Positions 42,732-47,631 of a stretch of 64,000 nucleotides of DNA are shown piece after piece; the stretch's first letter is position 1; each line of letters begins with the position of its first letter. The stretch comes from Halorussus limi (GTDB taxonomy: Archaea > Halobacteriota > Halobacteria > Halobacteriales > Haladaptataceae). The stretch spans positions 2,745,626-2,809,625 of the forward strand of contig NZ_CP096659.1 of the NCBI RefSeq assembly GCF_023238205.1, written 5' to 3'. The position numbers were made by a program, and so were the translations under genes. The notes beneath the pieces are model-generated. The model was not told the origin of the DNA. It worked only from the letters and a program-made list of their open reading frames with translations, and did not search any database.

Positions 42732-43889
42732 ATGGCCGACTCGTCCCGCCAGCGACGCCGTCTGCGGGTCGCCCTCGCGGTCAGCGTCGCACTGCTCGCG
42801 GCGCTCTCGCTGTCGATGGCGACCGCGACGCCGGCCGGCGAACGAGGGTCGCAGGTCCGGCAGGCGACTCTCGCCGACCTCGACGAGCGGTCCGTTTCCT
42901 CTACCGACCCCGGCCAGCGGGCGACCACCGACGCCGCGGAAAACGACAGCGCGGACAGCGCCAATCGGACAGGTCCGACGTTCGACGCGACGGTCTTCCG
43001 GGACATCGCCGGGCAGGTGGCGACGGAAGACGCCACCGTGACGGTCCGGGGAACCGCGACGGAAACCGACGAGGTGCTGGTCGCGCTGTTCGACCGCAGG
43101 GGCCGGGTCCTCACGGAGTCGGTCTCGGTCGGCGACGACGGGACGTTCGAGGAGGAAGACCTCGAACTCGTCGCCGACGGGACTCCGCTCGCCGAGGGCC
43201 GGGTCGTGGCGACGGTCCTCTCGCCCGGCCGGGACGCGCAGGTCGGCGACGGCGAAGTCGGGAACGCGACCGAGGCCGACCTCGCGGCGTTCGCGGCGGC
43301 ATTCCGCGAGACGGTCGGCCAGCGGTCGGGCGGCAGGGTCGTCTCGCGGACGCAGCGACAACTGGTCGAACTCTACTACGACCAGACCGTCGAGGACGCC
43401 GGGAGCGACGACCTCCTGCTGGCCGAGGAGTTCGTCTACACCGACGCGCGGACGAGCATCGAACGCGTCGCTCCTCGGTCGGCGGGGAACGCGACGGGAC
43501 CGGTCGAACCGATTCGCGTCGGCGACACGCTGGTCGTCCGTGGACTGACGAACCGCAGACCCGAGGACAATACGGTCTTCGTCGAGGTGGTCTCGGGGCC
43601 GAGCGCCGACGCCTTCGACCTCGCCGCGACCGAAACGTGGGGCACCGACGGCGTCTGGCGAGTCGAACTCGACGCGGCGGACGTGCAACCGGGCGTCTAC
43701 ACCATCGAGGCCGAGGACGGCGCGTCCAGCGACAGCGTACGCGTGAGAATCCTCCCGCGGGTCGGAAACGCGACGGTCGAGAACGCGACGACTGCGAATA
43801 CGACGGCCGAAAACGGGAGCGTCGGAAGTCACCGTCGTATCTCGTTTTTCTCGGGCGGACTGTTCGCGGAATCGTTCTCTGCGCGGTAA
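42732..43889 (+). CDS. secreted paralogue of the S-layer glycoprotein's central domains
   Basis: 385 residues with a signal peptide (RVALAVSVALLAALSLSMATATPA) and a linker, then two domains that match residues ~600-860 of the S-layer glycoprotein at 44545: DEVLVALFDRRGRVLTESVSV, EDAGSDDLLLAEEFVYTDA, VRGLTNRRPEDNTVFVEV, and WGTDGVWRVELDAADVQPGVYTIE correspond to segments there. The C-terminal tail is Asn/Thr/Ala-rich with sequons and ends RRISFFSGG... without a membrane anchor or PGF-CTERM. It probably decorates or assists the S-layer; a partial duplication of the S-layer gene is the likely origin. Confidence 0.8.
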   Translation: MADSSRQRRRLRVALAVSVALLAALSLSMATATPAGERGSQVRQATLADLDERSVSSTDPGQRATTDAAENDSADSANRTGPTFDATVFRDIAGQVATEDATVTVRGTATETDEVLVALFDRRGRVLTESVSVGDDGTFEEEDLELVADGTPLAEGRVVATVLSPGRDAQVGDGEVGNATEADLAAFAAAFRETVGQRSGGRVVSRTQRQLVELYYDQTVEDAGSDDLLLAEEFVYTDARTSIERVAPRSAGNATGPVEPIRVGDTLVVRGLTNRRPEDNTVFVEVVSGPSADAFDLAATETWGTDGVWRVELDAADVQPGVYTIEAEDGASSDSVRVRILPRVGNATVENATTANTTAENGSVGSHRRISFFSGGLFAESFSAR

Positions 43890-44544
43890 CGACGGTTTGC
43901 CAGCGCGCTACGGTCGATTACCGACGGTAGCCTCCGACTGACTCGCGGCCGTCCGTCACACCCGGTGGCAATCGGCGGATAACCGCATATAAGCGCACCC
44001 GAGCGACACCCCGGCGACGCCGAACCGTCCTCCTCGCGGAAACTCGACATCCCAGTTGAGTTACCCTAACCTACCTCTCGGCTAACAATTATTCCGATGA
44101 CAGCTCCAGCGAGTTCACTCTCGGAGAAAAGCGGCGTAACACGACGTTCTGTGGCGTGGTTCGTCGCCGAACCGCGCCGAGGCCGCGAGACCGATTCTCA
44201 GAAGAGAGTGACCGAATCTCGATACTACCCTCGGCCTATCCCGGATACCACGGCGGGATATTCTCTCCCTATGTGAGTAATCGGGGTTTCAGTCGAGTAG
44301 TTAGGGATGTCCTTTCGGTATTAGCCGATACTTACTCGGGGTGGCGAAAAACGGTCTGCGCTTTTTATGCACTCATCTGGCGTCCGCCTTTTCCGAGGTG
44401 AAACCTGCGAGACTCAGGACGCGGTGACGACGACCTGACGAACGACGACGATGGGATGGGGGGAACCGGCGCTCGAACACTGATAGGGGGAGTCCCGTAT
44501 CAGCGACCAATATCAAACATGACCCGCATACGGAAATATCAAAC
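43890..44544. other. S-layer gene upstream region
   Basis: 655 bases without a protein gene. It contains CATATAAGC near 43985-43993 and CTTTTTATGC at 44361-44370, two TATA candidates, a TCGGTATTAGCCGA inverted repeat near 44313-44326, and the duplicated start region at 44510-44560. If the 44361 box is used the leader is about 150 nt, long for this genome. Confidence 0.55.
44361..44370 (+). promoter_or_regulatory. candidate TATA box of the S-layer gene
   Basis: CTTTTTATGC, the best A/T-rich box before the S-layer gene. Transcription is predicted to begin near 44393, giving a leader of about 150 nt. S-layer genes of other haloarchaea also have leaders of over 100 nt (established for Haloferax). 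Confidence 0.5.
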
Positions 44545-44560
44545 ATGACACGCATACGGA
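44510..44560 (+). repeat. 26-nt tandem duplication of the S-layer start region
   Basis: Two 25-nt copies (44510-44534, 44536-44560) in a 26-nt period, each with ATATCAAACATGAC and CGCATACGGA, differing at one position. Each contains an ATG followed by codons for T-R-I-R. The first ATG (44519) opens a nine-codon ORF, the second (44545) opens the S-layer gene. Confidence 0.85.
44519..44548 (+). CDS. nine-codon upstream ORF overlapping the S-layer start
   Basis: Encodes M-T-R-I-R-K-Y-Q-T and stops with TGA at 44546-44548, overlapping the S-layer ATG (44545) as ATGA. It arose from the 26-nt duplication and shares its first five residues with the S-layer protein. It could couple translation to, or damp, S-layer synthesis. 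Whether it is translated is unknown. Confidence 0.5.
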   Translation: MTRIRKYQT

Positions 44561-47500
44561 TAACGAGAAAGAAGGCGAGTGCGCTCGCACTCACGGCGAT
44601 ACTGGTACTTTCGACGGTAGCCATGTCGGGGGCGGTCCTCGGCGCAGACGTGCAGCGAGGCGGACAGGACCCGACGTTCAACCCGGGCGTCGGTGGACCG
44701 AACACGGTCGTCGCGTCGGAGGAGAAACCGGTCGTCTTCCAAGGTGAGGAAGACATCAACTTCGTACAGGACAACGGCCAGCCGATAGACCCGTCGCAAC
44801 TCATCGGAGTCTCGGGCGACGCGGAGGGCATTCCGCTCGAATCGCCCGTTCCGGAGGACCAGGAACTCGGCCAGTACGCCGTCAACGGCCAGCGCAGTAA
44901 CATCGGCGTCACCGTCCAGAAGCCGCGAGTGACCGACCTCGAACTCTTCAACGAGCGCGGTATCGACGTCGAAGGCTCGACGGTTCAGGAGGACGAGACG
45001 CTCCTCGTCAAGGCCGACTGGAACTTCCAGAACGCCGAGGACCTCTCGCTCGAAGTCACCGACGAGAACGGTAACGAGATAACCGGCGACGTGCTGACCA
45101 ACGTCGAGTCGCTCTCGGACGCGCAACTGCAGGAACTCAACGGCGCGTACGCCCAATACCCGGAGAAGATAGACAACCCCGGTCAGCGGGGCACCGGCAC
45201 GGGCATCGAGTACCTGCAGGGCATCGGTCAGTTCAACAACACCCAACTCGAGACGAACAACACCAGCGTCCAGTCGGCGTACTGGGCCATCGACCTGAGC
45301 GACCAGAGTTCGGGCGACTACACCATCACCGTCGAGGGATGGGACAACCTGAATCAGGAGTCGGCGACCCGTTCGACGGTCGTCTCGGTGACCGGTGAGA
45401 CGAACGTCGCGCTCGACCTCGAAGGTGACGAGGCCACGCGCGGCCAGAACGTCCGCTACACCGTCCGCGGTTCGACGGCGGGCGCGTCTCACATCGTCAC
45501 CATCGAAGACAACGACTTCCGGAACAATCAGGTCAACGAGAACGTGTTCCGCGACGTGGAGGACGTCATCGACCGCGGGACGCTCGACACGAACAACGAC
45601 GGCAGTTCCGACCTCGCGTGGGCCCAGATCGAGGTCAACGAGGACACCGGTCTCGGCGTCGGTCAGATCGACACCTCGTACCTCGACGACACGAACGTCG
45701 ACGTGAACCTCTACCAGGAGGGCCAGAACCTCACCGACATCGCGCAAGACGCGGGCGACACCGAGGACGACCGGACGCTCAACGTCGTGCAGGGCGGCCT
45801 GACCTTCGAGAGTCCGGCGGGGACCTACATCGCCGGACAGGAAGTCGACGCGCGCGGTACCGCCGCGCCCGGCGTCGACGAGGTCGCCATCTACGTCCGC
45901 GACCAAGGCGACTGGGAACTGGCCGACATCAACGAGGACGGCCAACTCAACCAGCAGGACCTCATCAACGTGGACTCCGACGGCGAGTGGGAGGAGCGTG
46001 ACGTGACGCTCTCGCAGGCCAGCGACGTGCTGAGCATCCCCGGTCGGTACCGCATCGGCGTCGTCGAAGGTGACGACGTCGTCGGGCAGAACGGCACCGT
46101 CCAGGAGCAACTGTCCACGTCCGAGTTCAGCAGCGCCACTAGCGAGCAGACGTCCATCATCGTCACCGAGCCGACGCTCGGCGCCACTAACAACAGTTCG
46201 ATGGTCGCGTCGTTCGGTATCGGCGCGCCCGCGGCGATGCAGGACGGAAACAACACGACGCAGGACAACCAGACGCAGGACAACCAGACGCAGGACAACC
46301 AGACGGCGCAGGACGACCAGCGGATACGGCAGAACACTCCGGTGACGAACGAGAACCCGACGTGGGTCTTCCGCACCTACAACGAGCAGATCGCCGTCGA
46401 GGACGGCACCGTCGAGGTCACGGGCGTCGCGCCCGGCCTCGAAGAGGTCCTCGTCGTGATGGTCGACTCGCGCGGACGTATCGTCACCGAGACGGTCAGC
46501 GTGGACGACAACGACATATTCGAAGAGGACGACATCGAACTCATCAACGAGGAGGGACGCGAACTCAACGAGGGCGAGATTACCGGGATGGTCATCGGTC
46601 TGGGCCGCGACACCGTCGTCGGTGACGGCGTCGTGCCCGGTCAGGACCAGTCCGACCTCGCGGCGCTCGAGAACTGGATCAAGAGCTTCAGCACCGGGCT
46701 GACGCAGGACCAAGTCGTCGCCCGTATCATCGACGAGACGACCGGCGAAGCGGGTAGCGACGACCTGCGGCTTCGGCAGTCGTTCCGCTACGCCGACGCC
46801 GCGACCTCGGTCTCGGCCATCGTGCCGCAGGACGAGGCGAACGTCAGCAGCCAACCCGGCCTCCAGTCGCGCATCGTCCCCATCGAAGCGGGTCAGACGA
46901 TGGTGGTCGAGGGCGTGACGAACCGCAAGCCCGACGACAACACCATCACGGTCGAAATCATCGACGGCCCGAGCGCCGACGAGTTCGACTCGGCGGCGGT
47001 CGACCAGTGGGGCCGCAACGGCATCTGGTCGGTCAACCTGAGTACCGAGGGCATCCAGCCCGGTACCTACACGATGGAAATCGACGACGGCGACAACACC
47101 GACATCGTCCAGTTCCAAGTCGTCGAGCAGGGCCAGCAGAACGAGACGACCACCACTACGACGAACCAGACCGAAGCGGGTGACAACGAAACCACGACTA
47201 CGACCACGACAGCGGGAAATGAAGACACCGCGGCGGGTAACGAGACGACCCAAGCAGCCAACGAGACGGACGCCGCCGCGGGTAACCAGAATCAGCAAGG
47301 GGCACAGGCAGGAAACACGCTCGAAATCCGGAGCGAAGGAGTGACGCTGAACTACAGCATCTCCTTCGCGGGCACGGTCGAGGCGGTCAGCGACCAGACC
47401 GAGGAGAGCGACGACGTTCAGGACTCGACCGTCACGGGACAGGTCGGTGACGGCGACGCGGCCGACGCCTACAACTTCGTCGGCCAAATCAGCGACATCT

Positions 47501-47631
47501 CCGCCGAGGGCGACCTGAGCAACGCGACGTTCATCCTCAACGGCGACGAGGTCCAGCCCGGCGACCTTCCGGACGCGTCCGGGAACAACTCGTCGATGGT
47601 CGCTCCGGCAGTCGTCAGCGGTCCGGCGTAA
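44545..47631 (+). CDS. csg: S-layer glycoprotein
   Basis: 1028 residues, very acidic. Signal peptide 1-34 (KKASALALTAILVLSTVAMSGAVLGA). Long beta-rich domains follow; the segment WNFQNAEDLSLEVTDENGNEIT and YWAIDLSDQSSGDYTITVEGWD are typical of haloarchaeal S-layer proteins. A (QDNQT)3 run of sequons is near residue 570. Domains at ~600-860 are shared with the protein at 42732. A Thr-rich linker (about 866-900) is the usual O-glycosylation site. The end (about 926-1028: LNYSISFAGTVEAVSDQT, VTGQVGDGDAADAYNFVGQI) is a small domain common in secreted haloarchaeal enzymes. The PGF motif and terminal TM of classical S-layer proteins are missing. Confidence 0.88.
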   Translation: MTRIRITRKKASALALTAILVLSTVAMSGAVLGADVQRGGQDPTFNPGVGGPNTVVASEEKPVVFQGEEDINFVQDNGQPIDPSQLIGVSGDAEGIPLESPVPEDQELGQYAVNGQRSNIGVTVQKPRVTDLELFNERGIDVEGSTVQEDETLLVKADWNFQNAEDLSLEVTDENGNEITGDVLTNVESLSDAQLQELNGAYAQYPEKIDNPGQRGTGTGIEYLQGIGQFNNTQLETNNTSVQSAYWAIDLSDQSSGDYTITVEGWDNLNQESATRSTVVSVTGETNVALDLEGDEATRGQNVRYTVRGSTAGASHIVTIEDNDFRNNQVNENVFRDVEDVIDRGTLDTNNDGSSDLAWAQIEVNEDTGLGVGQIDTSYLDDTNVDVNLYQEGQNLTDIAQDAGDTEDDRTLNVVQGGLTFESPAGTYIAGQEVDARGTAAPGVDEVAIYVRDQGDWELADINEDGQLNQQDLINVDSDGEWEERDVTLSQASDVLSIPGRYRIGVVEGDDVVGQNGTVQEQLSTSEFSSATSEQTSIIVTEPTLGATNNSSMVASFGIGAPAAMQDGNNTTQDNQTQDNQTQDNQTAQDDQRIRQNTPVTNENPTWVFRTYNEQIAVEDGTVEVTGVAPGLEEVLVVMVDSRGRIVTETVSVDDNDIFEEDDIELINEEGRELNEGEITGMVIGLGRDTVVGDGVVPGQDQSDLAALENWIKSFSTGLTQDQVVARIIDETTGEAGSDDLRLRQSFRYADAATSVSAIVPQDEANVSSQPGLQSRIVPIEAGQTMVVEGVTNRKPDDNTITVEIIDGPSADEFDSAAVDQWGRNGIWSVNLSTEGIQPGTYTMEIDDGDNTDIVQFQVVEQGQQNETTTTTTNQTEAGDNETTTTTTTAGNEDTAAGNETTQAANETDAAAGNQNQQGAQAGNTLEIRSEGVTLNYSISFAGTVEAVSDQTEESDDVQDSTVTGQVGDGDAADAYNFVGQISDISAEGDLSNATFILNGDEVQPGDLPDASGNNSSMVAPAVVSGPA

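Follow-up and report, generated by a model that had tools for sequence, protein, structure and literature searches.

The S-layer glycoprotein gene of Halorussus limi carries a 26-nt tandem duplication of its start region, and as a result it is preceded by a nine-codon upstream reading frame (uORF) whose stop codon overlaps the start codon of the gene as ATGA. The duplication, located in the 64,000-nucleotide stretch of DNA analysed here (the window), is a rare and real event. We infer that ribosomes probably start at both copies of the ATG (ATG1 and ATG2), and the chances that a real part of S-layer translation proceeds by reinitiation, with the change itself being nearly neutral, appear to us evenly balanced. 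The mechanism is known; what this locus adds is a new case, with an upstream frame that was copied from the gene's own start. The part of the literature that was searched yielded no description of a duplicated S-layer start, nor of a uORF in front of this gene.

The repeated unit comprises the ATG with 10 nt of preceding and 13 nt of following sequence, and its two copies follow each other head-to-tail without a spacer (44509-44560) with 25 of 26 positions identical. Bases -10 to +5 are the same around ATG1 and ATG2; the single mismatch lies in the second codon, ACC in one copy and ACA in the other, with Thr encoded in either case. Indeed, a sequence-only reading had described a 26-nt tandem repeat bearing two ATGs and two products beginning M-T-R-I-R, and the codons of both copies agree with it. 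A scan for tandem repeats (unit 15-200 nt, at least 95% identity) in 464,000 bases of the genome, made up of the window and 20 stretches of 20 kb each, kept seven places, after removal of entries with a period equal to a multiple of a shorter one found at that location. Five of the seven have a unit of at least 20 nt, and two of these five have a length not divisible by three. With so few tandem places in this sample, the 26-nt repeat is a true duplication and is not in doubt.

Features of the S-layer start region and its leader, in window coordinates
Feature	Position	Strand	Remarks
TATA box TTTTTAT of the S-layer promoter	44362..44368	+	from leader alignments, invariant columns
GAGGTGA, Shine-Dalgarno-like	44395..44401	+	near the predicted 5' end; invariant in 11/11
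30-codon ATG ORF	44456..44548	+	in frame with the nine-codon uORF
Leader hairpin CTGATAGGGGGAGTCCCGTATCAG	44480..44503	+	distance from the end of its 3' arm: 15 nt to ATG1, 41 nt to ATG2
Repeat copy 1	44509..44534	+	contains ATG1 at 44519
Nine-codon uORF MTRIRKYQT	44519..44548	+	TGA overlaps ATG2 by 4 nt
Repeat copy 2	44535..44560	+	contains ATG2 at 44545; from the ATG onward equals the nearest relative's single copy
S-layer glycoprotein gene, 1028 aa	44545..47631	+	HVO_2072 family TIGR04216; related to PDB 7ptp

The protein encoded from ATG2 belongs to TIGR04216, scoring 535.8 bits as a whole protein against a curated cut-off of 400, and is related by sequence to the cell surface glycoprotein of PDB 7ptp (E 6.7e-99). 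Directly upstream of the gene, at 42732-43889, lies a 385-aa S-layer-like paralogue whose match to the family model is confined to the C-terminal part, and several relatives likewise have S-layer-like matches shortly upstream of their S-layer gene. A perfect 15-nt tandem repeat of 3.3 copies, read as TQDNQ in the protein, is present further into the S-layer gene (46257-46305); it is single-copy in the nearest relative, making it a second recent expansion in one gene. The C end of the protein is NNSSMVAPAVVSGPA. The name of the family calls its members ArtA-dependent, with what is presumably a PGF-CTERM anchor at the C end; the window protein gave no match to the PGF-CTERM model at E up to 0.001, and it and its orthologues end near MVAPAVV (window 47560-47631).

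Orthologues of the S-layer protein were found (E up to 0.001) in 10 of the 17 other Halorussus genomes, and the duplication is absent from all ten. The nearest orthologue, with 962 of 1017 residues identical (95%), has one repeat copy, which from the ATG onward matches copy 2, and the bases that follow directly, without a difference. Between the window and this relative, 52 of 515 fourfold sites and 21 of 172 aligned leader bases are different, and between the two repeat copies one of 26. Therefore, because the copies have diverged less than the window has from its nearest relative, the duplication would postdate the species split. These comparisons point to a recent and lineage-specific event, whose age, read from one difference in 26 bases, has a very wide error. 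The earlier suggestion of a recent neutral duplication, which was to be judged by comparison with relatives, thus gains support from its absence in every orthologue of the genus and from the lack of any uORF conserved among them. It is very improbable, in our judgement, that the repeat is an assembly or strain-specific artefact and that most cells of the species are single-copy: although a single genome of the species was compared and the TQDNQ-encoding repeat is another recent tandem expansion in the same gene, plain assembly stutter would not give a one-base difference between copies. As a separate observation, when searched with the S-layer protein (E up to 0.001), seven of the 17 genomes (G001, G003, G005, G009, G012, G014 and G017) yielded no match, and the coat protein may therefore have been replaced within the genus.

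Frame analysis confirmed that ATG1 opens MTRIRKYQT and that its stop codon TGA (44546-44548) overlaps ATG2 (44545-44547) as ATGA. The length of nine codons that had been given for the upstream ORF is right for the frame counted from ATG1; it missed that the same frame is already open from ATG 44456, reading MGGTGARTLIGGVPYQRPISNMTRIRKYQT before the stop, so that a longer uORF is possible, of which the nine codons form the 3' end. ATG 44456 sits in a conserved ATGGGGG motif, and an ATG is found there in 8 of the 11 genes (the window gene and its ten orthologues), with no conservation of the reading frame. All 11 S-layer starts read ATGA, and for such a start any copied length of 3k+2, here 26, produces the overlap automatically if no stop intervenes. 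The exact overlap is thus weaker evidence and is not an independent oddity.

Upstream ATGs are common in these leaders, with 15 in the leaders of 8 of the 11 genes and none in the other three. Five of the 15 end on the same TGA (two in the window, two in the orthologue L005 and one in L012), where about one third would be expected by frame, and two are in frame with the S-layer gene; their frames vary among orthologues in length and end point. Because these counts are about what frame alone would give, upstream frames seem to be tolerated, not conserved. Indeed, no reading frame is common to the orthologues and the nine-codon uORF occurs in 1 of 11, and a conserved regulatory uORF or leader peptide was rejected on these grounds. 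We consider it very unlikely that S-layer synthesis is under selected translational control by the uORF, whether through attenuation or sensing. The ATGA geometry is ideal for coupling and the only difference between the copies is synonymous in the uORF, as selected control would have it, but selection cannot be read from a single change that is synonymous, and a frame that is present in a single orthologue encodes no conserved peptide. A regulatory role therefore finds no support in the sequences compared, in which nothing indicates selection as control.

In contrast to the uORF, the leader itself is conserved. The stretch from 44347 to 44519 contains the TATA box, GAGGTGA, a GGGG motif and the hairpin, and is gene-specific in the genus. 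The TATA box and the preceding AAAAACGGTC are common to 11 of 11 orthologues with small changes, and from TATA spacing the mRNA is predicted to start at about 44390. An alternative, and in our view the least probable of those weighed, is that the duplication has placed an A/T-rich stretch at a promoter-like position and a leaderless transcript starts at ATG2. The AATATC of copy 1 does sit 31-36 nt before ATG2, but it is a poor match to the consensus of the haloarchaeal TATA box and slightly too far away, and the upstream TATA box is the one conserved in all 11 genes. Leaderless mRNAs are nonetheless the majority in Haloferax volcanii, as stated in an extract of PMC7531240.

The spacing of the leader elements indicates which of the two ATGs occupies the ancestral position. 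GAGGTGA lies 123-136 nt from the start in relatives and here lies 124 nt from ATG1 and 150 nt from ATG2. The hairpin is followed by the ATG after 15-16 nt in the six orthologues with the same outer stem and after 10, 17, 21 and 23 nt in the other four, the ten together spanning 10-23 nt (distances counted by hand from the sequences). Since ATG1 keeps this spacing and ATG2 does not, ATG1, and not the real start, occupies the former start position. When folded alone, the hairpin segment forms in 11 of 11 leaders, and in longer leader folds it is not always in the best structure; on the alignment its ten pairs are 81% paired, as compared to 32-54% for slid partners. Strong covariation was rejected for the hairpin (two double changes, a value reached in 56 of 500 shuffles, and a RNAalifold covariation term that was not favourable), as was unusual stability of the whole leader (z -0.38).

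Known RNA families were also rejected for the leader, which had no match at gathering score; the one sub-threshold match lies on the opposite strand, inside the gene. A covariance model built from the 11 leaders themselves places the leader once per genome, before the S-layer gene, in all 11 genes. When 18 genomes of the genus and 28 of the family (the 28 include those 18) were searched, only the 11 S-layer leaders scored well and other matches reached 14-19 bits, so that use of the leader as an element elsewhere was rejected. By eye, no shared leader was seen in four stretches upstream of more distant S-layer genes, two of which reach the gene start.

How, then, might ribosomes reach the S-layer frame? 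Within the 25 nt before ATG1 or ATG2 there is no Shine-Dalgarno match, meaning a match of at least 4 nt to GGAGGTGATC. The stop of the uORF overlaps the downstream start as in a termination-reinitiation pair, for which a Shine-Dalgarno motif before the downstream start, lacking here, is usual and not essential. In Haloferax volcanii, nine of nine tested overlapping or near gene pairs were strictly coupled; when the Shine-Dalgarno motif was removed, reinitiation dropped by about 20-80% in six of seven pairs but was never abolished (extracts of PMC6728339). In three Haloferax pairs, natively spaced at +1, -4 and -1, coupling was down to about zero at 22-23 nt, and in E. coli 15 nt of the upstream gene sufficed for coupling (extracts of PMC10666635). 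The 4-nt overlap seen here is a geometry shown to couple translation in Haloferax volcanii, according to the same two extracts. Therefore, since this overlap couples in Haloferax and the hairpin is still at its ancestral distance from ATG1, it is mechanically plausible that reinitiation sets the level of S-layer translation. The earlier description of the S-layer mRNA as the most abundant one of the cell is a presumption drawn from S-layer genes in general. What counts against reinitiation, judging from sequence, is that neither ATG has a Shine-Dalgarno motif, that all relatives do without the duplication and that covariation in the hairpin is weak.

Haloarchaeal leaders that lack a Shine-Dalgarno motif are translated without 5' scanning (extract of PMC3986360, citing Hering 2009), and ribosomes may thus start directly at ATG2, with the uORF perhaps of no consequence. 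The duplication would then be a pure accident, with ribosomes binding internally and starting mainly at ATG2 while ATG1 is little used and the uORF is without effect. We regard this as a serious possibility, on the doubtful side of even. It fits well with copy 2 and the next bases, which from the ATG onward are the start region of the nearest relative, with a close context of ATG2 that is a near-exact copy of the ancestral one, and with the frequent, unconserved upstream ATGs of the other leaders. However, the close context of ATG1 is no different, and only ATG1 retains the ancestral hairpin distance, so that it should attract ribosomes at least as well. At the opposite extreme, if the conserved hairpin were to place ribosomes only at the ancestral start position, nearly all S-layer protein would come from ribosomes that translate the nine-codon duplicated start and then reinitiate. 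This is unlikely; if true, one slip-type duplication would have made a major structural gene strictly dependent on reinitiation.

Between these two lies the reading that we prefer. A recent 26-nt tandem duplication took in all of the sequence close to the S-layer start, leaving ATG1 in the ancestral place, 15 nt past the hairpin, and pushing the S-layer frame 26 nt further. Ribosomes would probably still be loaded at the ancestral site, with initiation at both ATG1 and ATG2. From ATG1 they would make nine residues before halting at the UGA that overlaps ATG2, where many would restart by termination-reinitiation. Because many would restart, the change may cost little: both ATGs would be usable and starts at ATG1 would end on ATG2 in a geometry that favours reinitiation, so that S-layer synthesis could survive the duplication. 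The arrangement would thus work like a natural two-cistron leader, and the accident would be tolerated because the copied length is 3k+2 and the gene starts ATGA. This also suggests an easy route to an ATGA-coupled frame, namely the duplication, by 3k+2 bases, of a start region beginning with ATGA. The mechanism of start choice in leaders without a Shine-Dalgarno motif is called still unknown in extracts of PMC3986360 and PMC3828320. Since its two ATGs share positions -10 to +5 and differ in their distance to the hairpin and the 5' end, this locus is a natural experiment on that choice in haloarchaea.

Among known systems, the closest are the ATGA pairs of Haloferax volcanii (Huber et al. 2019, 2023), which share the 4-nt stop/start overlap, the commonest coupled geometry, and a haloarchaeal host. 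Unlike in those pairs, the upstream frame here is nine (or 30) codons long and is a copy of the gene's own start instead of a gene, there is no Shine-Dalgarno motif before the downstream start, and coupling is putative. The arrangement also resembles regulatory uORFs and leader peptides, in that a short frame precedes a presumably highly expressed gene within its 5' leader, but neither the peptide nor the frame is conserved in relatives and there is no sign of sensing. In the bicistronic design leaders of synthetic biology, a short leader frame is likewise made to end with a stop that overlaps the start of the gene of interest. Whereas those leaders were engineered in bacteria, the S-layer leader of H. 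limi would be a natural accident, in an archaeal leader that has no Shine-Dalgarno match.
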